Positions 5,925-60,865 of a stretch of 64,000 nucleotides of DNA are shown in pieces (the stretch's first letter is position 1; every line of letters starts with the position of its first letter). This DNA is from Odontocerum albicorne (lineage: Eukaryota > Arthropoda > Insecta > Trichoptera > Odontoceridae). The stretch is from contig OX463838.1 of assembly GCA_949825065.1 (NCBI GenBank), positions 7,356,251 to 7,420,250 of the forward strand, read 5' to 3'. Made by a program: the position numbers and the translations under genes. The notes beneath the pieces are model-generated. The model was not told the DNA's origin, ran no database searches, and saw nothing but the letters and a program-made list of their open reading frames with translations.

Positions 5925-7400
5925 ATGTTTCACTGTCCATCGTTTTATGATGAATAAAGAAAGACATTGAAATGTGACTGTGTTGAACACTCAACGTGTC
6001 CTCCCCGGTAAGTTTATTAAATTAAATTACATATTATTCTGTCCATGGTCTTATTGGAAATAGGGTAAGAAATTAAAATACGAGTATATGTGAGTTCAGC
6101 ACACACTGTGTCCTCTTACAGTGAGTTTATTTAACTGATCACAGTCATATGAGGAAAAGAGTAATATGAGAGGATTAATTAGTTTGATTTTTTTTATATT
6201 TCATCAATTAATACATTTGTTATCTTCACGTTTTCATACTTCATTCCCCAAAAAACTAAAGACAGTATAAGTAATTATGTTGAACCTTAATCTATGTTAA
6301 ACACAGTCACATTTGAATTTCTTGTGGAAAGCGTTAGTAATATTATATAAAGTTAAATTCAATTACCTCTCAGAAAGAAGACACAGAAGGGAACATATTG
6401 AGCATAGACACATTCCAATATCTCACTCTATTAACCAGAAGACTATGGACTGTATGTAAAGTAACTAATAATTAAGTTAAATAAACTCACCGTAGAAGGA
6501 CACAGTGTGTGTTGAACATAGTCACATTATTTTTCATTATATTCTCCATAAGACCGTAGGCAGTATTAGTATCATATAATTAAGTTCAGTAAACTCACCG
6601 GAGAAGGACTCAGTGTATGTTGAACATAGTCACAATATTTTTCATTCTATTCTCCATAAGACCGTAGGCAGTATTAGTAACATATAATTAAGTTCAGTTA
6701 ACTCACTGGAGAACAGTGTATGTTGAACATAGTCACATTATTTTTCATTCTATTCTCCGTAAGACCATGGGTAGTATAAGTGACATAAAATTAAGTTCAG
6801 TAAACTCACCGGAGAAGGAGACAGTGTGTGTTGAACATAGTCACATTATTTTTCATTATATTCTCCATAAGACCATGGGCAGTATAAGTAACATACTAAT
6901 TTAATTATGTTCAGTAAACTCACCGGAGAAGGACAGTGTGTTTGAACAAAGTCATATTATTTTTCATTCTATTCTCCATAAAATCATGGGCAGTATAAGT
7001 AACATAAAATTGAGTTCAGTAAATTCACCGGAGAAGGGCACAGTGTGTTTGAACATAGCGACATTTACATTTTTCACTCTACGAGTATTAACCAAAATAC
7101 CATGGGCAGTATGCATAATATATAATTAAGCTCAATTTACTCACAGGAAACTAATACAGTGGGTATTGAATATAGCCACAATATTTCTCACTCTTTTCTC
7201 CATAAGACCATGGACTGTATAAGTATGTTAACTAATAATCAAGTTCCATATTCTCTCCGAAGAAAGACACAGTGTGTATTGAACTAATTCCCATTTCAAT
7301 TTCTCACTCAATTCCCCATAAGATCATGGACAGTAAAAGTTATATGTAATTAAATAAATTAACACGCTGTAGGACGATTCAGTATATGTTGAACAGTCAC
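5925..7400. repeat. Satellite A, about 108-bp unit, with an orientation switch
   Basis: Units contain GTTCAGTAAACTCACCGGAG, GTGTTGAACATAGTCAC and CCATAAGACCATGGGCAG. Unit starts at about 6475, 6585, 6692, 6795, 6909, 7014 and 7130 give spacings of 103-116 bp. Between about 5925 and 6140 the same sequence is in the opposite orientation (GTGTCCTCTTACAGTGAGTT), so the array turns over near 6200. Open frames inside it are by-products of the repeat. Confidence 0.9.
7080..7088 (+). other. TA-CGAG-TA footprint-like 6-bp insertion
   Basis: This satellite unit reads CACTCTACGAGTATTAACC. A sister unit at about 6424 reads CACTCTATTAACC. The difference is exactly CGAGTA, i.e. a 4-bp CGAG plus a duplicated TA. 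One of five such filled/empty pairs in the window. Confidence 0.75.
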
Positions 7401-7880
7401 ATTTCAAATTATTGATGGCGATGATGATGATGAAAACGTCACCATATATTCTGATGGTGATGATGCTAATGAAAACGTCACCATATAAAGGTCACTACAT
7501 TTCAAATTATTGATGGTGATGATGATAATGAAAACGTCACCATATATTGATGGTGATGATAATAATGAAAACGTCACCATAAAAACATTACTACATTTCA
7601 AATTATTGATGGTGATGATGATAGTAAAAACGTCATCATATATTGATGGTGATGATGATAATGAAAACGTGGTGATGATAATAAGGAAAACGTCACTATA
7701 TATTGATGGTGATAATGATAATGAAAACGTCACCACATAAACGTCACCACATTTCAAATTATTGATGGTGATGATGATAGTGAAGACGTCACCACATATT
7801 GATGGTGATGATTAAAATGAAAACGTCACCATGTATGATAATGAAAACTTCACCATATAAAACGTCACCATATATATTCT
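7400..7880. repeat. Minisatellite with GATGGTGATGATGATAATG units
   Basis: Units of roughly 35 bp combine GATGGTGATGATGATAATG with AAAACGTCACCATA. Larger blocks begin with CATTTCAAATTATTGATGG at 7402, 7497, 7597 and 7749. The array starts in the middle of a satellite A unit, at the shared word GTCACATTTCAA. Open frames on both strands are simple-repeat artefacts. Confidence 0.85.
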
Positions 7881-7884
7881 TCTC

Positions 7885-8176
7885 TAAAAGCGTTAACGTC
7901 ACCCCAGTCCACCGCAAGCGACATAACAGTTCCACATATCGAGAGATACGGCTTCCCACTATTGCCATGACCCATCTGCCAAAAAAGGTGTATCGACTGG
8001 GCTACCCGAGTGCAGGTAACCTTATTGATTATCGATTAGCGGTAAGATTTAATGGCTTTCAGAAGCGTGTGGGGCTCGTAAAGGATGCCGACACATCACT
8101 TTGGGTAGATAGAGGAAAAGCATTCATATATAATATAATACTCCAAGGATTTTATGTGCTTATATTCAAGTGTTAG
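7885..8176 (+). other. Higher-complexity block of unknown origin
   Basis: A frame stays open from the repeat into this block and encodes about 90 residues including VYRLGYPSAGNLIDYRLAV and FNGFQKRVGLVKDADTSLW. Base composition is less AT-rich than its surroundings. I recognise no family. The upstream part of the frame is repeat sequence, so no start codon is credible. A decayed exon or transposon fragment are both possible. Confidence 0.25.
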
Positions 8177-8179
8177 TAA

Positions 8180-8728
8180 CTCTGAACTTATTAACCATAT
8201 AGTCAGGGTTCTTGATTTTATTTATTTTATACTTTCACGCGAATATATTTAGATAACTTATTGTATTTATTTTTCAATCAGCCATATTTTTTTTCGTAAT
8301 TGTTTATGGTATATACGACCTTATCTTGAACATTTATGAATATACTCGTAATATTCGGAAAAGTAAAGAAAATTTTAACAAATGCATCATAAAGAAGAAA
8401 ATAACAATAAGGATAGGAATCGTATGAGATGACAAGAAATATTCTGAGATATATTTTGCTTATTTAGGTTTTTGTATGCATTATGAATTTTCTAGATTTT
8501 TTAAAAATATTTATATTTAATAAATGTTGCTATGATACCTAAATGACATTTAAGTGTCCTATTTATTTTCTATTTATAAATAAACATTGTTAACAAGTAG
8601 TTATTATTTTGACGGGAATTCCAATCAAGTTTCGTTGCATGATTCCGAGAGGAAATAATCTTCCAATGAAGATATACGCCTTGTGTAGAGATTTAAGCTT
8701 GCGCATGGAGGGTTTTGTTTCCAACACA
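8180..8728. other. AT-rich stretch, no supported feature
   Basis: No motif or repeat recognised except one copy of the dispersed ATACTCGTA word at 8342. Confidence 0.4.
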
Positions 8729-8729
8729 A

Positions 8730-10485: not shown

Positions 10486-10489
10486 TTGT

Positions 10490-11650
10490 ATATAAGTTGG
10501 GTAGAAAGTATAATTTAACATTATTGAGAAGTTTTCTATTTTTTTTATATATTTAGACAAAATAAACTGCACTACCCTTAAAATACTCGTATGTTAAATT
10601 ATTTTATTTTATAGCCAATTTACCTGCACAAACATTATTTGTGACATCATTGTTCAAGCCATAAACGTTATTGTTAGTGAGTCAATTTAACAACTGAAGT
10701 TTATAAAACTATTTTCATTAGATTTAGATATTTAAACTTGAAAACTTGACAGTTGATCTATAAGAGGAAAAGTTTTTCGGAGAAGGAAATACGCGACATT
10801 CATTAGACGTAATAAAAACTATAGAATTTAATTAATTAAATGTTCTATTCTATAGTTTTATCATCTTGACCACATTTGTCGTCGTAATCCTCTACAATAC
10901 CTATTATCCTTTTCTTTACTTTTCTTTTTTTTGTTGTAGAATCAATTTATTTATGATTTTTGCCATAAAACATGGGTTTTTTTTATTTTTCACCATTTTG
11001 CGAGCTCATTCTTGTGTTAAAATTCACAATATATATAAATGAATGTAAAATTTACCGATATGTTGAAATCATCTCTATACGATCAGTTACTATGCGAGTC
11101 TAAAAGACACTGTTATCAGAGATACAATAACATCAATATCTACTTACCTAAATATTTCTAAAGAATACTTTAAAGCGTTTAAAGAAATTTTCATGAACCG
11201 GAAAGTTATATATTTTTATCAAATTAATATTCAAAACATAAAACAAATTAATCAAACAAACTGTAATATAATTTTGGTATTTTCTAAGAAAAACTAAAGT
11301 TGTATCTTACCGGAAAACATTTACTTTAATTATTTTCTTTCATAATGTTGAACTTCAAATATTACTTATAATTTAATTTAGTATAGAATAATATGGAATA
11401 AACAAACATTGCTAAGTTTTCTGTTATTCAATAATTTCGTATAGTCTAACATTTATTAAGAAGAGACGAAGTTTCATTGAATTCGAGTAACATAAATCAG
11501 TATCGCTTAATACGTACGTTCGTATTTATTAAACATTTATTCCTAACCCACGTATTAGTACATATGTTTGCTTAGTTTATTGAAAGTCTTAGAAAATACA
11601 TATTTGTGAAAGAAATTGACAACGTGTTTGATTTATTTTGCTAACCGATT
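10490..11650. other. AT-rich stretch, no gene; one small hairpin
   Basis: No coding signal. A 13-bp inverted repeat AAAACTATAGAAT (10815-10827 with 10847-10859) and one ATACTCGTA word at 10583 are the only structures noted. Confidence 0.4.
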
Positions 11651-11654: not shown

Positions 11655-13395
11655 ACGGATCTCATGATATGTCGGGATACGTTGTCTTAGCCTTAATTGC
11701 TGGTACTGTGATATGACGAGACGTCGTTCATATTGCAGATACCGTGATGTTATGTGACTCGTTGTCTTAGCCTTAATTGCTGGTACTGTGATATGACGAG
11801 ACGTCGTTCATAGTGCAGATACCGTGATGTTATGTGACTCGTTGTCTTAGCCTTAATTGCTGGTACTGTGATATGACGAGACGTAGTTCATATTGCAGAT
11901 CCCGTTATGTTTTGTGACTCGTTGTCTTAGCCTTAACATAATTGCTGGTGCTGTGATGTGACGAGACGTCGTTCATATTGCAGATCCCGTGATGTTATGT
12001 GACTCGTTGTCTTAACCTTAATTGCTGGTACTGTGATGTGACGAGACGTCGTTCATAGTGCAGATCCCGTGATGTTATGTGACTCGTTGTCTTAGCCTTA
12101 ATTGATGGTATTGTGATATGACGAGACGTCGTTCATAGTGCAGATACCGTGGTGTTATGTGACTCGTTAACTTAGCCTTAATTGCTGGTACTGTGATGTG
12201 ACGAGACGTCGTTCATAGTGCAGATCCCGTGATGTTATGTGACTCGTTGTCTTAACCTTAATTGCTGGTACTGTGATGTGACGAGACGTCGTTCATAGTG
12301 CAGATCCCGTGATGTTATGTGACTCGTTGTCTTAGCCTTAATTGATGGTATTGTGATATGACGAGACGTCGTTCATAGTGCAGATACCGTGGTGTTATGT
12401 GACTCGTTAACTTAGCCTTAACATAATTGCCGGTGCTGTGATGTGACGAGACGTCGTTCATATTGCAGATCCCGTGATGTTATGTGACTCGTTGTCTTAA
12501 CCTTAATTGCTGGTACTGTGATGTGACGAGACGTCGTTCATAGTGCAGATCCCGTGATGTTATGTGACTCGTTGTCTTAACCTTAATTGCTGGTACTGTG
12601 ATGTGACGAGACGTCGTTCATAGTGCAGATCCCGTGATGTTATGTGACTCGTTGTCTTAGCCTTAATTGATGGTATTGTGATATGACAAGACGTCGTTCA
12701 TAGTGCAGATCCCGTGATGTTATGTGACTCGTTGTCTTAGCCTTAACTGATGGTATTGTGATATGACAAGACGTCGTTCATATTGCAGATCCCGTTATGT
12801 TATGTGACTCGTTGTCTTAGCCTTAACATAATTGCTGGTGCTGTGATGTGACGAGACGTCGTTCATATTGCAGATCCCGTGATGTTATGTGACTCGTTGT
12901 CTTAACCTTAATTGCTGGTACTGTGATGTGACGAGACGTCGTTCATAGTGCAGATCCCGTGATGTTATGTGACTCGTTGTCTTAGCCTTAATTGATGGTA
13001 TTGTGATATGACGAGACGTCGTTCATATTGCAGATCCCGTTATGTTATGTGACTCGTTGTCTTAGCCTTAACATAATTGCTGGTGCTGTGATGTGACGAG
13101 ACGTCGTTCATATTGCAGATCCCGTGATGTTATGTGACTCGTTGTCTTAACCTTAATTGCTGGTACTGTGATGTGACGAGACGTCGTTCATAGTGCAGAT
13201 CCCGTGATGTTATGAGACTCGTTGTCTTAGCCTTAACATAATTGCGATGTGACGAGACGAGTCGTTCATATTGCAGATCCCGTGATGTTATGTGACTCGT
13301 TGTCTTAGCCTTATAGCTGATCCTGTGATATAATAAGACGCCGTTTTTATGGCAGATCCCATGATGTCATGTACGCGTTATCTTGGCCTTATGCC
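11655..13395. repeat. Satellite C, 80/85-bp unit with higher-order organisation
   Basis: Unit core: CTCGTTGTCTTAGCCTTAAT, GCTGGTACTGTGATATGACG, AGACGTCGTTCATA, GCAGATCCCGTGATGTTATG. GTGACTC positions 11758, 11838 and 11918 give 80 bp. Some units carry a 5-bp addition (TTAACATAATTGC). Variants appear in recurring order (ACATAA type, TTAACCTTAA type, GATGGTATT type), e.g. around 11918-12160, 12410-12670 and 12820-13070. Less AT-rich than the surrounding DNA. Confidence 0.95.
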
Positions 13396-17329: not shown

Positions 17330-18060
17330 AGCATCTTTAAAATATTTGTCTAAGATTTATTTTCAACCTACGAAAGTACGATCATATAACTTCATACCAG
17401 AAGACATTGTACTGGTAGAACGTTAGAAATAGACGCCAAATTCATATACTATCTCTATTGTGTAATATACTTAACTGTCCTGCCGCCCGTTCTTATCTCG
17501 CCGAAAATTTTCCGCGTCTTTCCGATCGTGGATTAGCGCTACGCTCAAACAAATATTGTTTATTAGCCCCGCTCCTTTTTTTATGTCGTCCTTTACTGTC
17601 CGTGCAGTGAGACTCTGGAATCAGTTACAAACCAATGTTGGACTTAACCCGTCCTTGGCATGCTTTAAAAAGCGACTGAAAAAACTCTTAATTTCTATTC
17701 AGTAACACGCCGTGTTTCATTCCTGATTTTTTTTCATTCCTCTCCATCATCCCTTCCTTTTCCTTTGATTAATGATATCTCACTTTATATGAAAAGGAAT
17801 TTTCGGATTGTCCGTCTTTGTGAGGTTTGTAGGCATAAATATTCATATTCTCACGTACGAGTATATGTTCATTGATTTCGTGGGGATTGATAGTCATTTG
17901 AATGTTTTTTGCGACCATCTAACTTGATTAATTTACTTTTATCTGTTTGGTTGGAAGAGATTGCCGTCTGGCAATTAGCCTGCCAGAGTTTATTTGCAAT
18001 AAAAGTGTTGAATAAATTAATTAATAAATGGTTGAAGGATATATATGATACTATGTAATA
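17330..18060 (+). pseudogene. LINE-C, 3' end of ORF plus 3' UTR
   Basis: Degenerate C-terminal coding sequence (pieces corresponding to SYLAENFQRLSNHGLALRSN and the final FKKRLKNLL of the 47.8-kb copy) up to about 17705. Then a 3' UTR with GTTTCATTCCTGATTTT and a terminal block GTTTGGTTGGAAGAGATTGC to TTTGCAATAAAAGTGTTG. This terminal block is also the tail of SINE-1. Stops and indels throughout. Confidence 0.75.
17856..17864 (+). other. TA-CGAG-TA footprint-like insertion in LINE-C
   Basis: The LINE-C copy at 34.6 kb reads ACATATACGTGAG (34630-34642) at the homologous place. Here, on the same strand of the element, the sequence is ACATATACTCGTACGTGAG. The extra 6 bp are CTCGTA. Confidence 0.75.
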
Positions 18061-19539: not shown

Positions 19540-20396
<857 letters not shown>

Positions 20397-20399: not shown

Positions 20400-22074
20400 T
20401 TTTATATTTTCACGGAGAGGAGTATACGTTGAATATTCTTTTGGAGTACTCCGTGTAGTCATCATGGTGGTCTTTATATTCCAATATTTCGTTCTGGATT
20501 ACACCAAAACATCATCAGGGAAAAGATTGATTTAGAATTGACTTTCTGTCAAAATGACATTTGTTAATTAGCGCTTTTGTTGGTTTACTCTGTGACCATA
20601 GATCCATAAGTTTTCATTAGAATTTCTTTTAAATATTTATTTGATTTGTAGCTACTTTTTGGTTATTTTTATTATTTTATTTTATTATTTTATTTATCAT
20701 CGGTTTCTTGCGTTCATTTAATATTGTATGCCATATTTTTGATATTCTTAGTGTGTCATCACGTGTGTTTAGACAGTTTGGTTGAAGATAAATTTCGATG
20801 GCTTCTCTTGTTGTTCTTGCTCTTTCTCTATCACCGTTTTTTATGGTTTTTGCATCATCAAAATTTATTTTATGCCCTTCTGTCATAACATGGAATGCTA
20901 GGGTTGATGTTGGATTTTAATTTTTGACGTCTACGCGGTGTTCTGCGATGCGTGCCGATACTCGACGATTAGTCTTCCCTATGTATGGTCGTTCACATGT
21001 TGAACACGGTATCTGGTATATTCCGTGGTTTTCATTTGGTATTGTGCTCTTGACACTTCTTATTAACGATGAAATTTTTTGGTGTGTTCCAAAGATGGTG
21101 GATATGTTATTTTTATTTAAAATTCTTCCAATACGGTCTGTTGTTCCTTTTATATATGGTAAAAATGCCGTGCTGACAAATTTCTTTTCGTTTCTTTTTA
21201 TATTATTTTTATTGTTATTTGTTTTATAAGCCTTGTTTATCAAATATTCAGAATATCCATTTGCCCTTAGTGCTTTTTTAAGATTTTGTTCTTCCGTTTT
21301 TAAATGTTGTTCGTCCGCTATTCTAATTGAGCGGTTTACTAGAGTTTTGGGCACTGATGCAATCTGGGAAGGAGAATGATGTGATTTTGCGTTCAGGTAG
21401 CGATCTGTGTGTGTTTCTTTTCTGTAGACACTGAAACCAAATGTATTGTTCATATTTCTTATTATGAGTACATCCAAGAAAGCAAGTTTTCTATCTTTCT
21501 CCTTCTCAACTGTAAATTTTATATTTTTATGTTGATTATTTAAGTGGTCTAGAAAAGATTCAAATTCATTCATTCCGTGTTCCCAAATAAGAAAGCAATC
21601 GTCAACATACCGCTTGAAAAATTTTGGTTTTAGTTTTGTTGTAGAGAGTGCTTGTTTTTCCAAGTTTATCATGAATGCATTACAGACAACAGGAGATAGT
21701 GCCGATCCCATCGGTGCGCCAATAATTTGCCTATAGAAAACATCTTCATATTTGAAATACGTATTATTGAGGCAATGTTTGGCCATATCCAGAATAAATT
21801 TAGGTGGTTTGAAATCTTCTTTAATGACGTCTAATGCTTCATTCATTGGTACTTTGGTGAAAAGGGACACAACATCCAAACTTATAAGTATATCGTTGTC
21901 TTTAAGTTCTGTCTCTTTCAACATTTTTATTAAATGATCTGCGTTCCTGACAAATGAGTCACATTTTTCTGTCTCTGGCTGTAGCTGTTTAGCCAGGAAT
22001 TTAGCGAGCATTTGTGTAGGAGAGCCGACAGCACTTACTATTGGTCTTAGTGGTGTATCTTGTTTATGGATTTA
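20400..22074 (-). pseudogene. Penelope-like element: RT plus GIY-YIG, one in-frame stop
   Basis: Minus strand. The frame enters at about 22071 with LRPIVSAVGSPTQMLAKFLA, then LISLDVVSLFTKVPM, the RT motif GAPMGSALSPVVCNAFM and the catalytic box KRYVDDCFLIW. The C-terminal GIY-YIG-type endonuclease follows (GIYQIPCSTCERPYIGKTNR, ARIAEH). TAA at 20917-20919 interrupts it, but the same frame continues with TSTLAFHVMTEGHKINF to 20677. 5'-truncated: no N-terminal domain. The 3' UTR holds a hammerhead-like core near 20505. The reverse transcriptase and GIY-YIG nuclease normally act together in PLE retrotransposition. It sits between (TA)n tracts. Confidence 0.92.
20455..20530 (-). ncRNA. Hammerhead-ribozyme-like motif in PLE 3' region
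   Basis: Minus strand: CTGATGA, then a stem GTTTTGG/CCAGAAC of 7 pairs (one wobble) with a 6-nt loop, then GAAA, then TATT-GG-AATA closing a short stem III ending in UA. The arrangement CUGAUGA-stem II-GAAA-stem III matches the hammerhead core that PLEs are known to carry. Stem I is not convincing, so activity is doubtful. Confidence 0.45.
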
Positions 22075-22085
22075 ATTTATGTTTA

Positions 22086-22413
<328 letters not shown>

Positions 22414-24800: not shown

Positions 24801-25425
24801 TTTTTTCCATCTGTTTGTAACTATATGTATAAATACTGTTTTTTTTTTATTTCAATACAAAATAAATCCACCTCCAGCCATAAATATACTCGTACAATAT
24901 AAACTATCACTCACCCCGAGCTCCAATTAACTCTAAGATGCAACCCTGCCAATATTAATTTCACTACCCTTAAAAGCAAAACAAAATATGTTACAGCTCT
25001 AAAGCTGAAGACACATCATGGGTTACATGAATACTTTTGTTTTAATTTATTCAAAAATATGATCATGAAAGCTTTAGTTCAAAATATACGAAAATACCGC
25101 AGACAAATATATTAATAAGGCTTTATTAAATTATAAAACAACCCTTCCCACACTAGCCACAATAATCAAGTAGGTTTCATCCGTGTGTGAAAAGGAAGGA
25201 AATGATTAGTCTGTAGCATCTTGTAGGTACTCGACTATTTCGACCCTAACATACAAAAAAAAACAATAAAATAAAAAATATACAAACTTATAATTAATAC
25301 ACTCCTATACACAAAATAAAAACAAACACATCGAAATATCCACATATTTAGAGAGATCTAGAAAATTTTGAGAGAAACAATCGACGAAAATAATATGGAA
25401 TAACCTCCCTGTCAAGATTTAACGC
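24801..25425. other. AT-rich stretch, no supported feature
   Basis: One ATACTCGTA word at 24886; otherwise nothing recognised. Confidence 0.4.
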
Positions 25426-25476
25426 GATTGATAATTATTAATCATTGTGCTTTGAACCTGTGTTGAAAAAGATAAA

Positions 25477-25733
25477 TTGTAATTTATTTTTATCAAACAC
25501 TGTTTATTCCACTTTTTTGTGACGGTATAACCCAACCGGTTTCAAGGCTTTCACCTCATCTTCAGGGGAGCGCAAACAAGAGTTGTTTGCGCTCCCCTGA
25601 AGATGAGGTGAAAGCCTTGAAACCGGTTGGGTTATACCGTCACAAAAAAGTGGAATAAACAGTGTTTGATAAAAATAAATTACAATGTCTTTAAACCTCC
25701 ACAACGTTAATGCCTTAACTATAAAAAACAAAA
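25477..25733. mobile_element. Palindromic PLE-terminus unit with 12-bp target duplication
   Basis: Arms 25476-25579 and 25583-25686 are exact reverse complements, 104 bp each, around GAG. Each arm carries the PLE end: CTGAAGATGAGGTGAAAG, CCTTGAAACCGGTTGG, TATACCGTCAC, AGTGGAATAAACAGTG. A 47-bp tail (TGTCTTTAAACCTCC to GTTAATGCCTTAACTA) follows the right arm. GAAAAAGATAAA occurs on both sides (25465-25476 and 25734-25745). It was inserted into Jockey-like-B. There is no coding sequence. Confidence 0.88.
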
Positions 25734-26000: not shown

Positions 26001-26009
26001 TACGAGTAT
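26001..26009 (+). other. TA-CGAG-TA insertion, in frame, in Jockey-like-B
   Basis: Here the LINE reads GAGTTGGGTATACGAGTATA then TCCATGG (ELGIRVYPW). The 46.9-kb copy reads GAGTTCGGTGTCTATCCGTG (EFGVYPW). Removing CGAGTA restores equal length; the insertion adds the two codons RV. Confidence 0.75.
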
Positions 26010-26350
26010 ATCCATGGTTTTATACAGTTGAATTTCTGCTAGGCATGCTTAGATAAAATTCCTTGAGTGAAAGAATAAATCTTCGTCTTCTGGTATACGT
26101 TGTCAGACTTATTCAGAGTTATGAGCTCTCCAGCAATACTAGCAAGATTAGCTATTTAATTTTACTAACAGCTACACTCGACATTTATCAGACCAGGTAA
26201 CAATAGTGGAGGGTTTTAAAATACTTAGTGTTAAAATGATGAACACTTCTTTTGGTCAAATGCATCATACGAGTATATTTTTAACACCAAGGTTGCATAA
26301 CGCATTGCCAGATGAGTGGAAGACATTTTCTTTTTAAGTTGAGGGATGCT

Positions 26351-35329: not shown

Positions 35330-35760
35330 CGTATGTTAGGTGTTGACGAATGAAGTAATATTATGTATAATATATCGGGTCCTTAATCACTGCACCAAGT
35401 GTCACATACAATGCTCCTCATTGCAGATATCGAGAGTAAATCAATCGCGTAACGTTTACTATTTTGACATGTCCTAAATTCTGCAAATTCGTGTTCGAAG
35501 CATATTAAGGGATTTTCAGATCACCCAAGGCAGTTCAGAGCTATGTGGTAACGCATCTACAGGCAAAATCCACCCACTAGGCACGATGTTCCTCTTTACT
35601 CAATCATCCTAAGAACAGTAGTTGGTTGTTTCAGAAGCAACGCGGTATGAATGAAACTGTGCCTGGATTTAGATCTAGCAGTTTGGAACTCATGGTTATG
35701 CAAATTATCTGAATAGTTATACTCGTATATATAACATAATTTACTTATTGTACTTTGTGA
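35330..35760. other. Unassigned stretch of moderate complexity
   Basis: Not strongly AT-rich. I found no known motif. One ATACTCGTA word at 35719. Confidence 0.3.
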
Positions 35761-36690: not shown

Positions 36691-37880
36691 TAAACGACTC
36701 GCTTATAATGATGCAATACCACGCATTCATTTAACATATATTCAACACTTTATTCATTCAATATTTTCAATAGCTTTTTTCCTATTGTTCGGTCATAAGA
36801 TTTTTCAAAGAACACAATATAACCATTTATTTTTTTACCATACATTGTTTCACAAGTATAAATAATCAAAGAGAAAATCCGATCCACCCATCCTTTTTCA
36901 CTTAAAAAGGCTTCTGAGCATCCCACGTTTTCTTTTCAGGCCTTCTTCTCCCTCTTTTTATTAGAAATTTTCCAGAACAGTCTTAAATTAAGACTTCTTT
37001 ATGCCATCACAATGTACGGTTTTTATCCACCATTAAAAAAAGTAACAAGAGAAATACTCAAATTAGAATTTGAAGTGCGCGTGAATATAAATACAATTTG
37101 TCACAAAAATAAAAAACATTACATATGAATACATATACAAACAAATCAAAAAACAGTACACACATGCATATAGATCGTTCAGCTAGAAGAGTTATTTTGC
37201 AATACTGTAAGTAACAGTGCGTTTACAAAAACTTGTCACTTTATTTTTTTAAGAAGTGAAAAAGCAAAAAAATAATATTTTATATTCAAACATTGAAATG
37301 AACACGCACGTTTTGTAAATTAAAAATGCTGTCAACTTAAATTGTAATAATCATAAAAATAAAATGAAAATAAGTTTATTTCAAATATTAATTGTTTAGG
37401 CATGGCAGATTCTAGGAAACATTGAATAACAATAATGACATTTTTCAAGAGTAAAAATAAATATAAGTACAAATATTATAAAGTTAAAATGTTCGTCAGT
37501 TTTAATTAGATTGCACATAAAAATAAAATGAATGTAAGATTATTTAACATATTTGTATCATAATTATAATGCCAAATAATAAAGTTTTAAAATAATAGTG
37601 GGATGGAGTGATATTAAATTCTATGGAACTTTAAGTTATAACAAAGTACATTCTAAGCTTTTGAAAATTTTTGAATTATGCATTACATTAGACAAAAATC
37701 GCACTGCTAATTTGACATGGTAGTGTTTTTTTCTTATCACCGAGTATTTTAACAACAATACAAACGTGCGCTCTGCGCGAACCAATCGTGTGGCATTCTA
37801 AAACCAATACCACTACATAAGTTGTGTAATACAGAGAGTGTACTCACACTATTGCGAAATGATTCTTCTGGCTGAACGAT
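36691..37880. other. AT-rich stretch, no supported feature
   Basis: No gene or repeat recognised. Confidence 0.4.
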
Positions 37881-38199: not shown

Positions 38200-38649
<450 letters not shown>

Positions 38650-41060: not shown

Positions 41061-41640
41061 GGTGTTAGTATAAATTGTGTTCGTTTTTTTCCAATTTAAA
41101 AAATGAGCACCAAAAGTAAAACAAAATGCTAAAGGTATACGAGTATGTCATTCGTAAGAAAATTTTCTGTTCTACAAGATATTGTGTTTGCTTTTACGTT
41201 ACATATATTATTTTATTTGATTACAAGCCTTCAAAATGGAATGTCAAGTAGACGAAAGTGAGCAATTTCGACACCTCCTTCTGTTCGCGTTCAATCGAGG
41301 GAATAAAATTGCCAAAGCTGCTCGCGATATTTGCGAAGTGTACGGTGAAGATGCTATGAATGAAACGACAGTTCGTCGATGGTTTTTGCGTTTCAACGTC
41401 GGTAACTTTCACCTGAAAGACATGGAGCGTTCCGGACGACCAGTGGACTGCGATGAGGACCGCTTAAACCATATTATTCATGAAGATCCCCTTCAACCAT
41501 TTTTCATCACCATTGTTTTTTCCCTCACCATTTTCAAACCATTTTTCATCACCAGTAACACATCGAGAGTATATTATTTACACCATAGGCAACATTATGT
41601 CGTATTAGTTTCGATAGATGACACTCAAAACGTTTAAAGT
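41061..41640 (+). pseudogene. mariner, 5' end and HTH, rearranged
   Basis: TTGGGTGTTAGTATAAATTG resembles the terminus TTAGGTGTTAACATAAGTTG of the 44.6-kb relative. The frame from 41236 encodes MECQVDESEQFRHLLLFAFN, RGNKIAKAARDICEVYGEDA, TTVRRWFLRFNVGNFHLKDM and ERSGRPVD, a mariner N-terminal HTH pair. After about 41490 it breaks: on the opposite strand 41521-41560 reads RCVTGDEKWF, the catalytic-domain motif, so an internal piece is inverted. CCATTTTTCATCACCA occurs twice there. Confidence 0.8.
41138..41146 (+). other. TA-CGAG-TA footprint-like insertion in a mariner 5' UTR
   Basis: This copy reads AAAGGTATACGAGTATGTCA then TTCG. The two relatives at 43.91 and 44.53 kb read GGTTATACGTCATTCG. 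The copy equals TA plus CGAGTA inserted, allowing one lost T and one CpG C-to-T change. Confidence 0.65.
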
Positions 41641-41884
41641 CAATAAAACCGAATCCTACACTTCATTTGTTATCACAAAATAGACACATACCACGAAAGA
41701 ACACTTTGACCATTATAATGGACGTCCGGTCTGAAGATGTTAATTTGTTAATAACTTTATAGTTAATTCAATATTAAAAGCTTGTTCTATCTGTTAGTAA
41801 AAAAATAGTCATCAATAAATGTTTAAAAACAGTTCGTGCTATCCACTTCCATTGGGCGCTTACGTACACTGCCGACATCAAATA

Positions 41885-42416
41885 ATATATAGGGTCATTG
41901 AAATTGACTGGGTTTTTTAATTTTTTTTTTTAATTCTTGAATAAACCCACAATTGGCTTAATTTTAAAAAACTTTTTATTGGCCATTGACGTAAATGTAT
42001 GACATTTACACACAAAAAACGAATATCCGCCAAATGTCCTCTTAAAGTTCTACAGATGACCACCCTTTAGTCAAAATTTTCGATGACATTTTGGCATAAT
42101 TGCGGTTCTAACACATCAATAACGCGAATAATTTCGTCCTTGAGCTCAGGAATTGATCGGGGTCATTATTATAGACCTGGCTTTTCACGTAACTCCAGAG
42201 AAAATAGTCCAACGGTGTCAGATCACATGATCTCGGTGGCCAATTAACATCACCGTTTCCGGAGATTACAATACATAAATCAATTTGAACACGTTATTGT
42301 ATTGTAAACGACTCCATTTTTATAAATGCCATACATTACACTTTTCAAATGTCACAAGATCCAGACAAATTCGCGACGCCATCTGTGTGTTATCCAAGAA
42401 TTGAAAAAACCGCTCT
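41885..42416 (-). pseudogene. Tc1/mariner-superfamily element with large internal deletion
   Basis: Minus strand: a start MESFTIQ, a few codons, then directly GDVNWPPRSCDLTPLDYFLW, SYVKSQVYNND, ELKDEIIRVIDVLEPQLCQN and VIENFD. PPRS-DLTPLDYFLW-Y-K is the C-terminal motif of a DDE transposase of this superfamily. The 5' start is fused to the C-terminus, so most of the protein is deleted. The 3' end AGGGTCATTGAAATTGACTG (plus strand, 41892) and the inner word GGTTTTTT-AATTCTTG on both sides suggest terminal repeats. Confidence 0.7.
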
Positions 42417-42429
42417 TGCTTGCTTGAAC

Positions 42430-42778
42430 GAGTTCTTTTTCTTTTACTAAATTTTTAAACGTGCGCATTTAACTGCGTCATCGATCATTTGTCAGTGATT
42501 TGAGGGAATACCTTTTCCACTGTTGTGTCATACGAGTATGTGTGGTTGTGTTATTTATATGTGTATACTTATATTAAGTATTTGTGTGATAATCTCATTT
42601 TATTTTTGGCTCGAAGAGCATTTGATTTCGATTCTGATTTCTCGCTTTCTTCTAAGTTTTATCTGAGCTTTCTTTGCTCCTTATCATTACCTTTGTAGAT
42701 TAGTTTACTTTGTAGACTATCGAAGTGAATAAGAGTAAGAGTAGCCACCCTGTACCACCACCCTGTACCACCCTGCTA
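42430..42778. other. Unassigned stretch
   Basis: A T-rich block and a short direct repeat CACCCTGTACCAC near 42745. One TACGAGTAT word at 42531. Confidence 0.35.
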
Positions 42779-42779
42779 G

Positions 42780-43080
42780 ACCTTTAAGGAGAATAATTAC
42801 ATATATTTATAAGATCAAGTGTAGGTGTAGAGTGTGGGGATGGGAAGGTATCGACTGCGGCCTGTATGATTGGAGCTTCCCCGCATTTGCATATGTATTG
42901 AAGACATATTCGGTGAGAAAACCGCAGAAAACTCACCGAGGGAAGTCGAGCTTCAGAGGACCTCTGGGCTCTACCGTTCTGTGATATTAACACAAAACCG
43001 CTCAATTGGAAAGACCCTTTATATATGGAAAGACGGCCCTGCAAATATTTACTTTTATTATTAAAATAATAGAATAACTT
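42780..43080 (-). mobile_element. LINE-D 3' UTR fragment
   Basis: GGTGAGAAAACCGCAGAAAA, CTCACCGAGGGAAG and the preceding block correspond to LINE-D at 61.68-61.85 kb (AGTAAGAAAACCGCAGAAAA, CTTATCAACGGAAGACGACC). No coding sequence and no tail preserved. Confidence 0.5.
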
Positions 43081-43382
43081 TGAATACGAAAGAGACGACA
43101 CTCTTATGTTTTACCAGGAAGAAGTTTCGTATTTCTCGGATATACTCGTGTGTTGTAAGGACTAATTACTTTGTTTATATAACACTGTTTACTTCATTCC
43201 AAACGTGCTGAATGAAACGTAATTATTAAGCGCTTGATTTTTTAAATCATGTACGCAATTTCCTTGAGCGGGTTTTTGGAATAAATTTAAAAATGGATCA
43301 ACGTTATTTGTATTTTTCTGTGATTTGTTCTTCCCCCCCCCCCCCTCAAAAAAGGTAACAAAAACCAAAAAATATATATGTA

Positions 43383-43629
43383 CAGTACCCGGTGGTGAGA
43401 AATACACATCGGGCTTAAGAAAGAAACTGTCGGCCATAATCGGCTAACTTCGGCTTTGTAGAGCGTCGCCTCTGTCATTCATACACGTGTTCCGTCGCGA
43501 TTTGTCAATCGTTGTTAAGCGTTCTAGGGTGTGGTCGCTCGGTGAGACGACGCTCTACAAAGTCGAAGTTAGCCGATTATGGCTGACAGTTTCTTTCTTA
43601 AACCCGATGTGAATTACTTACCGCTACTG
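43383..43629. mobile_element. Palindromic MITE, pogo-like ends
   Basis: Starts CAGTACCCGGTGGTGAG after TA. Long inverted arms include ATCGGGCTTAAGAAAG, CTGTCGGCCATAATCGGC and GGCTTTGTAGAGCGTCG. The right end reads CTTACCGCTACTG and lacks 3 bp compared with the 51.7-kb copy. The middle (CATACACGTGTTCCGTCGCG) is unique. An open frame starting in the right arm is not a gene. Confidence 0.85.
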
Positions 43630-43823
43630 ATATTTGGAGATGATGTCCGCTCTGAAAAGCCAATTTCGACTGATGACGACCAAAACACGACTTTAATCGA
43701 GAAACCACAGCGACCTATATCACGCGAGATTACTGAAAAATTAAAACCCACCATCTACAAGCCTTAGATGTAAATTTTACCTTTGATTTTGATATAAAAT
43801 GCTAAATTACTTTCCGGGTTACT

Positions 43824-44617
43824 CAATATGTATAAGATGTTAACATAAGTTGTGTCCGTTTTTTTCCCATTTAAAAATGAGCACCAAAAGTATAACACAA
43901 TGGTAAATGTTATACGTCATTCGAAAGATAATTTTCTGCTCTACAAGATATTGTCCTCATCGAAGTCCACTGGGCGTCCGGAAAGCTCTATGTCATTCAG
44001 GTCGAAATTACAATCTTTTTTTTTTTTTTTTATTAAGCAAAGTAAATTATTGTTCAAACATTTGTCAAGGCTATACATTTATACAAATTTATTACTTAAC
44101 TAATCTTAATTATATGTTATAATTTATGAACTAACTTAATCTTATTTTCCTACATGTCATTTTATTTTATTTTTTTCAATCTAAGTATATGATTTCTTAG
44201 AAATAATTAACACCTACATACTACTTATAACAAGATAACAATTCTTACACTAATTATTTAGTAAAACAGAAATTACCATCTTTGAAACGCAAAAACCATC
44301 GACGAACGGTCCTTTAATTCATAGCATCTTCACCGTACACTTTTGCAAATATCACAAGCAGCTTTGGCAACTTTATTGCCTCGATTGAACGCGAACAGAA
44401 GGATGTGTCGAAAATGCTCACTTTCGTCTACTTGACATTCCGTTTTGAAGGCTTGTAATCAAATAAAATAATATATGTAACGTAAAACTAAACACAATAT
44501 CTTGTAGAGCAGAAAATTTTCTTTCGAATGACGTATAACCTTTACCATTTTGTTTTACTTTTGGTGCTCATTTTTAAATTTGAAAAAAAAACGGACACAA
44601 CTTATGTTAACACCTAA
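43824..44617 (-). pseudogene. mariner derivative with duplicated inverted 5' ends
   Basis: From 44617 on the minus strand: terminus TTAGGTGTTAACATAAGTTG, 5' UTR, then decayed HTH coding similar to 41.24 kb up to about 44281, an insertion (44016-44268), then coding for SGRPVDFDED at 43950-44003. At 43824-43955 the 5' terminus and 5' UTR appear again in opposite orientation, roughly 90 percent alike by eye. The 3' half of the element is thus replaced by an inverted 5' end, a plausible step towards a MITE. Confidence 0.75.
44016..44268 (-). mobile_element. Jockey-A 3' UTR insertion with 12-bp target duplication
   Basis: Begins with a T run (the A tail on the minus strand) and matches the Jockey-A 3' UTR (TTATTGTTCAAACATTTGTC, AGGCTATAC, ACACCTACATACTACTTATA). 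GAAATTACAATC (44004-44015) and GAAATTACCATC (44269-44280) flank it; 11 of 12 match, and both are mariner coding sequence. No Jockey coding sequence is retained. Confidence 0.85.
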
Positions 44618-44619
44618 TA

Positions 44620-44915
44620 CATTGCTCTACATTTAAAAAGTTAGAAATCCAACGGATTCCTCTTATTTAACCTTCGAATTACGGATGTTTCTCAGAGACG
44701 ACTTGAGTATATTCGTCCCTCGTTTTATACGGCAGATACGTTCTAAGGAAATTAACGTAAATCGGTAGCGCACAAATTGAGGTAAGAAACTTATCTAAAA
44801 TTGGAAGACATTTTCCATTTTGTAATTTGATACATACAAAATAACCTAAAAATTCCAAGTCACATAAAGCCAGCTTTTTACACTAATTTTAATCTCCGGA
44901 AACTCTAATTATACG
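44620..44915. other. Unassigned stretch
   Basis: Nothing recognised between the mariner terminus and the PLE fragment. Confidence 0.35.
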
Positions 44916-46019: not shown

Positions 46020-46580
46020 CTCTCTTCTCTGGAGAATACCAAAACTCTAATGTGGCGCATTCGATGACACTTTGTATAAAAATAGGGACAATTTATTCTA
46101 AAGCTGCGTTTACATGAATAACACATAACGTAAAAGACACATTTATTTTATTTTTAAGCATACGTCAAGTATTAATTAGTACGTATAGTTTAAATTTTGT
46201 ATTCATTATTTTAGACTCTTATAATTGACAATATGAGTAGATATTTTTAACATAAAAATCAATTTAGACCAAAATATTTATCTGGAAAAATTAATCTCCT
46301 TAGTTGTTAGTTCAATACTACTGGGCGTGATCACCACAGTCATCGACCATAATTTTGCAGCACAAGCAATCTCTTGCTCCGTATATTGCCTCTTGGATAG
46401 TATACTCTCATGTTTTCCTCTAATTTATTTATTTATTTATTTATTCAATTACTTTGAAAAATACAAGACATTAAAAAAGAACAAAAATTACATAGAAAAA
46501 AATTATATATAATAAAAAATAATGCATATGCATACATACGAGTATATACACACAAACAAATGATACACATATATTCACAG
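46020..46580. other. AT-rich stretch, no supported feature
   Basis: A short TTTA repeat at 46424-46445 and one TACGAGTAT word at 46537. Confidence 0.35.
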
Positions 46581-49560: not shown

Positions 49561-50138
49561 TTGTAGATATTCCGATATGTTATAACAACACATTCGACTT
49601 TAGGTGTAGTATAGTCAATACAAATTTTACATAATTTAGAATATCAAAGTCAATCTCAAATTAGATTAAACTCATTATACAAATTAAATGTATTTTGAAA
49701 ACCACGTTTTATTAGTATACACATGAAACTGTTGATTCTAAGAAAAAGAATTCTATGTTTATTGTACTTACGAGTATACTCGTATTACTTTGAAATTTTA
49801 CTGTTGTATTCATTTAAAAATACTTCAATCCTAATTTTTAATTCCGCAACTTCTATGTATATTTTTTAATACCTTTCATGCTTCAACTTGGCTTTAATAA
49901 TTCTAATTCTTTTCTGAGAACGGATTACACCTACATTGAAAAATTGCTGTCATTAATTTTCCAACCCACATTTAGAACAAAAATTAATTTTTATAAATTG
50001 ACCTAAGAACGTGATCCCGAAATTTGCATTTTTATTTATTTTTTTATAAATGAAAATGTTACTTAAAATAATTTCAAAAAGACAAAAATATAAGAAGTTA
50101 CATCGAATAATTAGAAGACGACGTCCATGGCCTAGGCG
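49561..50138. other. AT-rich stretch with a palindromic double motif
   Basis: TACGAGTATACTCGTA at 49769-49784 is a perfect 16-bp palindrome made of two overlapping copies of the dispersed motif. Otherwise nothing recognised. Confidence 0.4.
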
Positions 50139-50430: not shown

Positions 50431-50704
50431 TAGTACATACAATCATGAACATCATAACGCCAGGGTGTGGACTAAAAAAACATGTGATGTCCTCGCGGCC
50501 GAGCTCACCCTATATTGATGTGGTATATCTCAGCCGAGGAGAATGTTATGAGATGAACCCAGACCTTTTTATATGATTTCTTTTAAATGTAATTTCTGCA
50601 GTTTATCGTGAGATATAATACGAGTATCTGTGTTTTCGGAATAGATTTATTTGCCCGTTCATACGTACATACTATGTGGCTATCAATAATCCTGTATTTA
50701 TTTA

Positions 50705-51130
50705 TTTATTTCCCCGTCAACCTAGGCGGAGAAGACAGAGCACCATACTTTCTAGCTCAACACACACATCTTCAGCCTCTTCTACATCCATACACCTTCT
50801 CATACAACCTTTACGATACCTCTGACTTTCTACGTTTATTTCAGAATACTCGTATAATTCACTTTATCCAACCATATTTTCCTTAGTTTTCTTCTACACG
50901 CCTTCCACTCATATTTGCACTGTATATATATTTTTTCATTCATTCGTTCTACGTGCCTAAACCATCTCAACGTACTTTTCTTCGCCTTATTTAACACATC
51001 AGTCTTAAGTTCAAATTCCTCCCTTAACACTTCATTCCCTGTTCTGTTATACATGGTCACTCTATGTATTCTTCGCAATGAGCGTATGTTAACAGCATTT
51101 ATTAGTCTCCTCTCGTACCCTATGCTCATG
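50705..51130 (-). pseudogene. LINE-B, C-terminal ORF with (AAAT)n tail
   Basis: Minus strand: MSIGYERRLINAVNIRSLRR, VTMYNRTGNEVLREEFELKT, DVLNKAKKSTLRWFRHVERM, KIWLDKVN, then in another frame RCMDVEEAEDVC. RWF-HVERM and the final block match the 24.2-kb copy. The 3' end at about 50705 is followed by TAAATAAATAAATA on the minus strand, a LINE-type tail. Confidence 0.75.
50846..50854 (-). other. TA-CGAG-TA footprint-like insertion in LINE-B
   Basis: This copy reads CAGAATACTCGTATAATTCA; the 56.5-kb copy reads CAAAATACTATTCA. Removing CTCGTA gives equal length with two substitutions. Confidence 0.6.
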
Positions 51131-51389: not shown

Positions 51390-52120
51390 TGCTTAGACGA
51401 TAGTCTACAACAGTGTTTTAGTAACAATTTTTATGCATGGGAGTGAAACGTAGATGAGGAGAAAGGTTAAAAAGAGCCGAATAAATGCAGCGAAAATGCG
51501 TACTATACACTTGAAAAATATATTTGGATACAAAGCGACAAAATATGGAAGATAATGAGTGATGATTGTGAACTTAAAACTGACGTTTTAAGTAAAATAA
51601 AAAAATGCACTCTCAGGTGGTTTGGAAACGTGGAACTAATGTTTAAAAAATACTAAAAAAACAAAAAAATATTGTATACACGTGAGTACAGTACCCGGCG
51701 GTAAGTAATACACATCGGGCTTAAGAAAGAGACTGTCGGCCATAATCGGCTAACTTTGGCTTTGTAGAACGTCGTCTCTGTCGCACGATGCGCCAAAAGT
51801 CTGGCGAAGGAACACGTGTATGAATGACAGAGACGACTCTACAAAGCCGGAGTTAGCCGATTATGGCCGACAGTCTCTTTCTTAAGCCCGACGTGTATTA
51901 CTTACCGCTGGGTACTGTATACTATATATGTGCAAGTCTAATATGAGAAAAATATGGTTGGATAAAATGACTGATATTTTGAGGGAAGGAAAAATAAGTA
52001 GGAGGAGAAATCGTAGGAACTTTTTGAGGTGTATATAAAGGTATGTGAATGAGGCGAAATATGTGTTTTGATATAGTAATGATAAGATCTGTCCTCTCTG
52101 CTCACGTCAGCACATAAGCG
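51390..52120 (+). pseudogene. LINE-B, C-terminal ORF, split by a MITE
   Basis: Before the MITE: TIFMHGSET, RRKVKKSRINAAKMRTIHLK, and further shifted pieces with KTDVL and RWFGNVE. After it: NMRKIWLDKMTDILREGKIS, RRRNRRNFLRCI and VNEAKYVF. These are the same successive motifs as in the 23.9-24.4-kb copy. Stops and frame changes throughout. Confidence 0.7.
51689..51917. mobile_element. Palindromic MITE, pogo-like ends, exact TA duplication
   Basis: Starts CAGTACCCGGCGGTAAG at 51689 and ends with the complement of CAGTACCCAGCGGTAAG at 51917. TA flanks both sides (51687-51688, 51918-51919). Arms of about 95 bp agree at roughly 94 percent by eye. CAGT-starting ends with TA duplication suit the pogo group. 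It interrupts LINE-B. Second copy at 43383-43629. Confidence 0.92.
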
Positions 52121-55790: not shown

Positions 55791-55794
55791 AAAG

Positions 55795-56230: not shown

Positions 56231-56349
56231 CCGGAATACCTGATTCTTAAAGCAAAGTACGCAAAATTGTTATTTGTCCATCATTGTCCAAACTCTCTTC
56301 GATGTGAAATGTAATTAATGAAGAAGATACTCGTACTTTAGACAAATCG

Positions 56350-56660: not shown

Positions 56661-56724
56661 ATACATTAATTTATTTTTTATTGAAATATCAACATTTTTA
56701 TACAATACTCGACCTTTGTTGTAA

Positions 56725-58455: not shown

Positions 58456-58460
58456 ACATC

Positions 58461-59232: not shown

Positions 59233-59394
59233 AACATAATCATCATGTTCCTGCAGAAACATGTAATATATAAATCAATTTAGTAATATTTTAATTAATT
59301 TAGTAAAATATAGGTACCACACCCACTTTTGATGTGGATAGTCCATAGTATCATGACACCAAATATATAAGTACTTCTCACATAAAAGACCAGG

Positions 59395-59500
59395 ACCAAT
59401 CTGCCTGAAGATAGGCTTAAGATTAGAGGTAAAAACACGTTTAAAGCGGATTAATATAATTAGTGGAATAACAAAGTAATTTATTATTAAATTGCCTACA
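59395..59500 (+). mobile_element. Possible PLE terminus, diverged
   Basis: GCCTGAAGATAGGCTTAAG, AAACACGTTTAAAGCGG, TAGTGGAATAACAAAG and a following TTGCCTACAATC parallel, with spacing, the CTGAAGATG...GAAAC...AGTGGAATAAACAG...TTACAATG order of the PLE ends. Sequence divergence is large. Confidence 0.3.
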
Positions 59501-59634
59501 ATCAGTTATTGTCAAATATTTTACAATAAGTCCTTGTTCAATATTCTACAATAAGTCGTCCGACATCTTCCGATGTTTCATAATAACACATTGATGAGTT
59601 ATGAATAAAAACAATTCAATATGAACTCACATAA

Positions 59635-59880
59635 TGTTGCTGAATCCTGAAACCTGAAAATGTATAGCTACCAAATTTTCTGCAACGCTCGTGAACGTTG
59701 GTTTTCGACAGTTTCAGTGCCTCATTAATTTCTCGTGTCATAGAATGCTGATTATTCTCCATCAAAACCTTAGTTTGATATTGATCAGTGGAAATAAACC
59801 TTCCAGAGTGGACACCATCTTAAAGTGTTATATCACCATTATAAATTTTTCAATCCACATTTGACATAAACGATTGTTTA
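59635..59880 (-). pseudogene. mariner transposase N-terminal fragment
   Basis: Minus strand: GDITL, DGVHSGRFISTDQYQTKVLM, ENNQHSMTREINEALKLSKT, NVHERCRKFGSYT. It fits the mariner linker (LKD-PRSGRP), the second HTH (ENNPHYTTREIAE-LNISKS-VH) and the start of the catalytic part. One stop in the first HTH region; catalytic domain missing. Confidence 0.6.
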
Positions 59881-59889
59881 CTGCATTAT

Positions 59890-60865
59890 CGCCATATGCT
59901 ATAAATTTTCTTTTATTTTATTAAACGAGTATGGCAAGCGAATTTTTACCTCAAGAGAGTATGGACGTACACGGTCCGATGTTTTTATTCCCGAATACAT
60001 GAATTTGTCCATAAAACGGACATGGCTCAAATGTTTTTATCTATTCAATTATTTTGTACTTACAAAATATATTTTTTAATTTTTACTTACGAAATCTCAC
60101 TCGCTTAGAGGTTAGTGTAGCATATTTTTCTTTACGGTAGTAAAAAAGCATCAAACACCGAAAAACAACTCATTTTGTTTCATCTTCAACGTATTCGCAC
60201 CGTGTCTACTGAATGAATATCATGGATCAACACTCGTCACACGTGGTGCAGAAATATTTAATCGACTAAGTGACACTATGGATATGTTCTTGGCATCGCC
60301 TAGCAATATGAGAATAATCCTGGCTAGTATTTTTTCTTACGAATGAATGAACTCGTAGCAGATCTCCTAAAAGGCACAAAAAATCAAGCAATTAAATTTG
60401 GGTACATAATGATATACATTCGGCACGTTTGAAATAAAATTAACAAAGAAAATTTAATCCTAAATATGCAAAAGTACTTTTAAAAATGACGTGTTACAAT
60501 AACTTCATGATATTTACATCAAGGTATCACAAATTCAATTGAAGCATACCTTAATGTGATTTGCTCGATTAAGGCCTGATACGAGTCAACTACAGATATT
60601 AATAATTGAGGACCGCACAAGTGACTTTCAATCCTTTTTAAGATATTATAATTAATTATTAAAATCACATTAGAGAAGGGATTAATCAAACTGAACGATC
60701 GCCTGAGGAATAATTAATGATATACTCGTACATAGGTCGATTAAAGCGTGTCTTTGAGTGAAAACGACTCGCTTGAAATTTAATGAGTTTGGACCTTTGT
60801 GTCCCAATCATTATTTCTTTATATATTACATAGGTTTAATGTTCTTTTTATATAGTTACCAAAAA
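59890..60865. other. Unassigned stretch
   Basis: Nothing recognised apart from one ATACTCGTA word at 60722. Confidence 0.35.

Follow-up and report, generated by a model that had tools for sequence, protein, structure and literature searches.

The 64-kb stretch of DNA analysed here (the window) contained 20 copies of the 9-mer TACGAGTAT or its complement ATACTCGTA, each of which, judging from its letters and surroundings, is most probably the scar of a departed transposon of the Tc1/mariner superfamily, or of a MITE moved by its transposase, with inverted repeats that would start with CGAG as in Minos. An exact search of both strands placed 11 copies on the forward strand and nine on the reverse strand, a density of one per 3.2 kb, and every one of the 20 coordinates listed in the original prediction proved exact. 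The chance level was about 0.6 (0.58 in 100 dinucleotide shuffles, with a largest count of 3, and 0.61 by a second-order Markov model). The word TACGAGTA occurred 21 times against 1.5 expected; its extra copy, at 40923, lay within a tandem array of 27-bp units, the consensus of which includes TACGAGTA. In the unmasked window the enrichment of many satellite words exceeded that of the motif; when tandem arrays were masked and only words with at least six unlike contexts were admitted, the motif ranked first among the dispersed 8-, 9-, and 10-mers. A tandem-array origin was ruled out by the masked array sequence, which held just one of the 20 sites. The motif made up 0.28% of the window length. 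Clustering of the sites was weak (at least three gaps under 300 bp, p = 0.23; a gap of 7 or less, p = 0.04), and the window gave no Rfam match at gathering scores.

Eight of the 20 sites had a usable relative within the window, and the motif was absent from the aligned place in every relative compared. Seven of these eight sites showed a net gain of exactly 6 bp, and the eighth a gain of 5 bp; at the seven, the gain consisted of CGAG plus a second TA, in line with the insertion at TA and duplication of TA that characterize a Tc1/mariner footprint. The five pairs of filled and empty sites in the original prediction mostly held. The gain was 6 bp at 7080–7088 (forward strand) in satellite A, compared with several empty units (e.g., 6403-6456); at 26001–26009 (forward) in a LINE-like coding fragment, where the insertion relative to the empty copy 46983-46924 was in frame (GV to GIRV); and at 50846–50854 (reverse) in LINE-B, with the empty copy 56545-56488. 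At 17856–17864 (forward), at the first TA of the LINE-C word CGTATATG, the gain depended on the LINE copy, being exactly 6 bp against 34642-34605 and 7 against 47675-47633. Upstream of a mariner-like ORF, at 41138–41146 (forward), both empty copies (44564-44504 and 43884-43944) had one extra T, and the gain was 5 bp, not 6. Three comparisons went beyond these pairs. The copy at 6079–6087 (forward), in a satellite-A-like repeat, was compared with the empty relative 7321-7266, and a length scan was best at k = 6 (35/48). The copy at 34665–34673 (forward), at the second TA of the same LINE-C CGTATATG, lay in the right arm of an inverted repeat (34655-34676), of which the left arm (34629-34644) represented the empty version; this arm and the empty stretch used for 17856 are one and the same piece of sequence. 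The copy at 38364–38372 (reverse) was compared with the empty relative 25316-25274, which aligned over 43 nt ungapped at 79%.

No usable relative was found within the window for the other 12 sites. Nine of them were single copies at 26268–26276, 42531–42539, and 50619–50627 on the forward strand and at 8342–8350, 10583–10591, 24886–24894, 35719–35727, 56327–56335, and 60722–60730 on the reverse strand. Two formed the twin TACGAGTATACTCGTA, with its left half at 49769–49777 (forward) and its right half at 49776–49784 (reverse). The copy at 46537–46545 (forward) had only a low-complexity relative (37108-37165), and this comparison, which scored 48.5 where shuffles reached at most 45.5, was dropped from the count; its length scan peaked at 4 and 12, not at 6. 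A census of gaps between relatives gave eight loci with an insertion of 6–7 nt, four of which overlapped the motif and a fifth of which adjoined one; the inserted letters were a plain rotation of CGAGTA at the 7080 gap only. This last point counts against the excision reading, as do the 5-bp gain at 41138 and the 7-bp gain against one relative of 17856.

When CGAGTA was removed from the scars, the joined flanks resembled the AT-palindromic target AYATATRT of a Tc1/mariner footprint. Their mean score of 6.3 exceeded both the 4.49 averaged over 9,945 background TA sites and the 5.13 of their NTAT subset, and it was not reached in 100,000 draws from either background. AYATATRT/CAYATATRTG is given as the Tc1 target consensus in the available text of one report (PMC9635669), and that of another gives ATATATAT as the ZB target consensus and likens it to those of SB and Bari (PMC7913693). 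The base after TA on the CGAGTA side was T in all 20 scars, whereas the base before TA was A in just 13 (Fisher p = 0.008). This one-sided T exceeds what a symmetric process or symmetric ends would predict, and it speaks against excision of an element with symmetric ends.

Decayed forms of the motif were not in excess. Copies with a single mismatch numbered 11 in the unmasked window against 17.5 expected (range of expectation 16–17.5) and 10 against 13.6 with arrays masked; half copies numbered 14 against 14.55 for CGAGTA lacking the preceding TA and 15 against 16.35 for TACGAG lacking the following TA. Because neither class was in excess, the copies appear young and uniform, and such uniform, undecayed scars would point to a recent and strong burst of activity. 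The spread of products usual for NHEJ was nearly missing from the window: TACTAGTA occurred twice against 0.54 expected, TACGCGTA was absent against 0.41 expected, and TACGTA occurred 11 times against 13.7 expected. The word TACGAGAGTA occurred three times against 0.08 expected, and two of these copies (23547 and 54497) sat in copies of one repeat. The near-lack of the usual end-joining spread speaks against the reading of the motif as an excision scar.

The Minos terminal primer, as it appears in the accessible part of one paper, is TACGAGCCCC and begins with TACGAGCCCCAACC (PMC3680223). Minos excision is described as leaving a 6-bp footprint (PMC3386967, PMC10992017) and Tc1/mariner footprints as being 2–4 bp long (PMC7913693), again in the sections available. 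Four bases, CGAG or CTCG, separated the two TAs in all 20 copies, and they would correspond to a transposon end; one Minos-type end followed by a second TA would give TA-CGAG-TA. In the proposed sequence of events, an element would insert at TA in an AYATATRT-like site with duplication of the TA, as the flanks suggest, and the transposase would later cut the 5' ends four bases within the element, so that each flank would be left with a 3' CGAG overhang. Pairing of the two overhangs might then form a mismatched heteroduplex, and its repair to either CGAG or CTCG would yield TA-CGAG-TA in one orientation or the other, with the net 6-bp gain that was observed at seven sites. The original prediction, which did not name Minos, had attributed the motif to a TA-targeting transposon that bore CTCG.../...CGAG ends and was excised, and this was supported by the 6-bp gain at TA in seven of eight comparisons, the Tc1-type target, the motif-free relatives, and, within the published text available, the terminus and footprint size of Minos. 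The alternative offered with it, an unknown micro-insertion process, is not required. Excision footprints are of a known kind, and the surprise lies in their density without decay; this density and the freshness of the scars make a very active source transposon, not found in the window, likely.

No element of the form TA-CGAG...CTCG-TA turned up in the 64-kb window: among 45 TACGAG/CTCGTA pairs lying 40–8000 bases apart, the best terminal match was 15/24, and the contexts of other TACGAG words in the window gave no source candidate. The inverted repeats in chosen regions of the window likewise gave neither a CGAG end nor a candidate element. A tblastn search with a Minos protein query found no Minos-like transposase in the window; its single match under E 1, at 511-810 (E 5e-6), was to a DDE_3 fragment that we read as mariner. 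The same protein query had no match in viral contigs, where two ORFs from the window gave pattern matches and no relative. The 15-base Minos terminus matched nine viral contigs once each and a satellite word matched two genome sequences and one viral sequence, and these matches were taken as chance. Among the other repeats of the window, the reverse-transcriptase ORF at 20917-22071 had 276 matches, and those named among the 120 listed included insect, vertebrate, and sea-urchin sequences, with identities mostly around 40-53%; a LINE ORF had no matches and a repeat ORF had one.

These searches bear on whether the source was another TA-targeting family, of a mariner, pogo, or MITE lineage outside the Minos clade, that ends in CGAG by chance. 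In favour of this, mariner-like and other DDE or HTH transposase fragments lie in the window, where the search for a Minos-like transposase found none, and four bases are insufficient to name a clade. Against it, none of the TA-flanked inverted-repeat pairs listed (40 of 41) started with CGAG, one pair being just two scars that share TACGAGTATGTT, and the inverted repeats of the regions examined showed no CGAG end. In the available text, SB and Frog Prince leave footprints of C(A/T)GTA, and ZB leaves footprints of 0–3 bp. We consider such a family possible but doubtful, a judgement that refers to the odds of the clade being another one; this alternative overlaps with the excision scar favoured here, because the latter requires no Minos clade.

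The uniform, undecayed scars and the lack of elements in the window would also be accounted for by programmed elimination, with a somatic assembly and germline-kept Minos-like elements that a faithful machinery cuts out anew every generation, always leaving TA-CGAG-TA, much as ciliates treat their eliminated sequences. Elimination would permit directional processing of the ends and hence the T asymmetry, and it is known in animals, including copepods (PMC4029161) and fungus gnats (PMC8906591), from the portions of these papers available. An ordinary burst covers the same facts, however; a resident element copy would rarely be expected in a 64-kb window anyway, and the abstracts consulted on the topic gave no description of Minos-type scars. 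We regard programmed elimination as improbable, and equally so its specific form, in which faithful, directional somatic excision of Minos-type elements by a Tc1-type transposase, resembling IES excision, would leave TA-CGAG-TA-T about once per 3 kb in an animal-like genome.

A sequencing, barcode, or assembly artefact would fit the uniformity of the motif and the lack of an excess of decayed copies, and the motif resembles what we take to be a 454 multiplex tag, TACGAGTATG. The tag was rejected on the next base, which was G at just four of the 20 sites; the flanks continued unbroken into related sequence at the comparable sites, and an artefact would not produce a Tc1 target bias, which leaves this origin very unlikely. 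A functional or bound motif under selection (a regulatory site, origin, or insulator) would be exactly conserved with no excess of decayed copies, as seen here, but it was rejected as extremely unlikely on the motif-free relatives at the comparable sites, where only the filled copy, within a satellite or repeat fragment, has gained the motif, and on the Tc1 target consensus around it.

If the density of excision scars holds genome-wide, the host would carry a huge number of departure scars, from which it could be read how often a DNA transposon has moved. Such a density would point to a Tc1-type element of exceptional activity, which would be a candidate tool for gene transfer, and to 6-bp in-frame insertions that arise steadily; it would also offer a natural assay for the repair of transposon breaks in the host. 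The timing of the activity can be tested through the lack of decayed copies, and end processing through the one-sided T.

Among known systems, the internal eliminated sequences of ciliates are alike in dense excision at many loci, and those of Paramecium are TA-bounded. To our knowledge, their excision leaves no CGAG scar, and the ciliate somatic genome is unlike the satellite- and LINE-rich window. Tc1 of Caenorhabditis elegans leaves a shorter footprint of 2 nt, and TACATA was not strongly enriched in the window (92 against 82 expected). Minos of Drosophila hydei, a member of the Tc1/mariner superfamily, carries inverted repeats of 255 bp, each with two transposase sites, and only CGAG, the four terminal bases, would be visible in a scar. 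In the published sections available, Tc1 shares the target consensus CAYATATRTG with the scars, and Sleeping Beauty, Frog Prince, and ZB are Tc1-like elements with a TA target, with an AT-palindrome preference for SB and ZB; their footprints differ from the CGAG found here. Minos is alike in its TA target and 6-bp footprint, so far as the available text describes them, and its terminus begins with the CGAG seen in the scars; the likeness to its footprint is one of size. The Minos footprints known to us come from mobilised laboratory insertions, for which scars of 4 and 8 bp and exact excisions are also reported, whereas the 20 scars here were uniform.

In the window (64,000 bases, approximately 68% A+T, 200 N), exact matching located the 9-mer that contains TA-CGAG-TA, or its complement, at 20 sites, 11 as TACGAGTAT and nine as ATACTCGTA. 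The original prediction had listed these 20 positions with every coordinate exact, and its estimate of about one copy by chance was close to the values obtained from dinucleotide-preserving shuffles (mean 0.58, maximum 3, n = 100) and a second-order Markov model (0.61). In the unmasked window, the enrichment of many satellite words exceeded that of the motif. When tandem arrays were masked and words with fewer than six unlike contexts were discarded, the motif ranked first among 8-mers (17 unique contexts against 1.32 expected), 9-mers (17 against 0.48) and, as ATACGAGTAT, 10-mers (13 against 0.18).

Relatives of the filled sites were sought by self-BLAST with 250-base flanks, by self-BLAST with the flanks joined after removal of 6 bases, and by an ungapped scan removing 0 to 14 bases at 19 sites (49776, which forms a twin with 49769, was omitted). 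Six was the sole optimal removal length in the ungapped scan at 6079, 7080, 26001, and 38364, and tied with two at 50846; at 17856 seven was best and six second, tied with two, and at 41138 five was best and six second. The remaining 12 scanned sites showed no clear length peak, except for the AT-rich site 46537, with peaks at four and twelve. Compared with the copy at 34642–34605, 17856 showed a gain of exactly six bases; the copy at 47675–47633 lacked one further T. At 41138 the filled copy had T where both relatives read TT, and at 26001 and 50846 taking CGAGTA as the insert also left two substitutions at the junction. Site 34665 was missed by the ungapped scan, and an inverted repeat there gave the empty version by direct reading: the left arm (34629–34644) was AACATATACGTGAGCA, and the right arm, reversed, repeated those 16 bases except for a CTCGTA insertion at TA. 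The empty references for 34665 and 17856 overlapped, this left arm lying within the same stretch. Eight of the 20 sites were thus comparable: the filled copy was longer by exactly 6 bp at seven of them and by 5 bp at 41138, where the original prediction had read 6 bp. No relative at the eight comparable sites had the motif at the aligned place. Sites 6079 and 7080 lay in related satellite units, at differing positions within them.

A census of gaps between relatives, with the satellite at 6459–7353 left unmasked, yielded 49 gap calls, nine of which, at eight loci, were of 6–7 bases. Four of these loci (7080, 17858, 26000, and 50851) overlapped a motif, the motif covering 0.28% of the window, and a fifth, 6088, adjoined one. 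The gap letters were a plain rotation of CGAGTA at 7080 only; at the other loci, aligner placement or substitutions had shifted them.

With CGAGTA removed, the 20 sites had Y at −2 (15/20), A at −1 (13/20), T at +1 (20/20), R at +2 (15/20), and T at +3 (15/20); A at −3 was at background level (8/20). PMC9635669 gives the Tc1 target consensus as AYATATRT and CAYATATRTG, and PMC7913693 reports the ZB target as ATATATAT, likened to those of SB and Bari. The mean match to AYATATRT was 6.3 of 8 at the scars; for TA sites of the masked background (n = 9,945) it was 4.49, and 5.13 in their NTAT subset, a control that matters because T at +1 supplies much of the score. The scar mean was attained in none of 100,000 draws from either background.

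The interpretation of the motif as an excision footprint draws on the six-base gain at TA, the Tc1-type target, the occurrence in both orientations, and the relatives without the motif at the aligned place. Excision would involve a staggered break reaching four bases into the element; two CGAG 3′ overhangs would pair with central mismatches remaining, and the mismatched pairing would be repaired to one strand. Arca et al. 1997, cited in PMC7843133, has "chromatid repair by heteroduplex formation" in its title. Mixed repair products were almost absent from the window (TACTAGTA, 2 against 0.54 expected; TACGCGTA, 0 against 0.41), and window word counts showed no excess of trimmed scars, which leaves two readings: exceptionally clean repair, or scars of these kinds that went unrecognized. 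With arrays masked, TACGAGAGTA was over-represented (3 against 0.08 expected), two of its three copies lying within copies of a single repeat. Two scars shared one short stretch of the LINE-C repeat family: in one copy scar 17856 marked the first TA of CGTATATG, and in another copy scar 34665 marked the second. A back-to-back pair of scars, TACGAGTATACTCGTA, occupied 49769–49784. T followed CGAGTA at all 20 scars and A preceded TACGAG at 13 (Fisher p = 0.008), and T was always on the CGAGTA side at all seven sites allowing the call (two-sided p = 0.016). This asymmetry, which was spotted post hoc, conflicts with symmetric ends, for which A-before and T-after should be equally frequent; it may reflect chance, or the processing of one end ahead of the other.

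The excess in the window was confined to the full 9-mer, and partial words were at background: CGAGTA without a preceding TA occurred 14 times (14.55 expected) and TACGAG without a following TA 15 times (16.35 expected). Single-mismatch neighbours were not in excess in the window (11 against 17.5 expected, or approximately 16.4 by shuffles) or with arrays masked (10 against 13.6); the latter ratio, 0.74, fell within the range of 400 permuted words (0.51–1.44, mean 0.91). Provided that these backgrounds hold, the 95% limit for decayed copies caps divergence since scar formation at approximately 0.4–1.3% per site, loosening to 3.5% with a single-mismatch background set as low as 12. Since the best relatives around the scars showed 75–92% identity (BLAST, flanks joined without the 6 bases), the scars look younger than the surrounding repeats.

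Neither an element with CGAG ends nor a Minos-like transposase was found within the 64-kb window, which is too small to speak for the genome. Mariner-like copies were present in both orientations at 41084–44622, one with a Mos1-type HTH domain. A reverse-transcriptase ORF on the minus strand (20917–22299; Pfam RVT_1), read as Penelope-like, partly overlapped a 235-nt inverted repeat (96% complementary) and was adjoined by an AT microsatellite. An animal-like genome is suggested by the named relatives of one reverse-transcriptase ORF, together with the presence of LINE and mariner-type sequences. An AT dinucleotide array (848 bp, 98% match) was located at 19546–20393, and the satellite at 11680–13391 had a unit of 80 bp and, beyond that, periods of 245 and 325 bp. 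The inverted repeat at 25476–25686 is probably a very young foldback element, because its 104-nt repeat is perfect and the gap is 3 nt; two other foldback elements (43394–43622 and 51687–51919) had the arm stretch AGAAAGA(A/G)ACTGTCGGCCATAATCGGCTAA in common.

The scar density in this window was 20 per 64 kb, or one per 3.2 kb. Were the window typical, approximately 300,000 scars would be expected in a one-billion-base genome, a number that some 5,000 copies with an assumed excision rate of 1e-4 to 1e-3 per generation would produce in some 60,000–600,000 generations; at ordinary mutation rates, such a period would fall within the age limit of the scars. Excision footprints as a kind and Minos-type ends are already known; the unusual part is the density of scars in the window, and among the papers listed in a literature search none reported a genome so densely covered with such footprints.

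TA-CGAG-TA, in either orientation, is the product predicted from one end of Minos, a Tc1/mariner transposon of Drosophila hydei, plus TA, and we take these letters to be those of the recorded Minos footprint. In the literature, the Minos terminal primer is TACGAGCCCCAACCACTATTAATTC (PMC3680223), the footprint is 6 bp (PMC3386967; PMC10992017), and excision was precise in two of six lines examined (PMC7843133). Minos scars are not always uniform, because excision alleles of 4, 6, and 8 bp occurred among three sequenced lethal lines in PMC6980720. The 6-bp footprint of Minos matches the gain at seven of the eight comparable window sites, and its terminus would account for the CGAG of the scars; the window scars are uniform, whereas the reported Minos scars differ in length.
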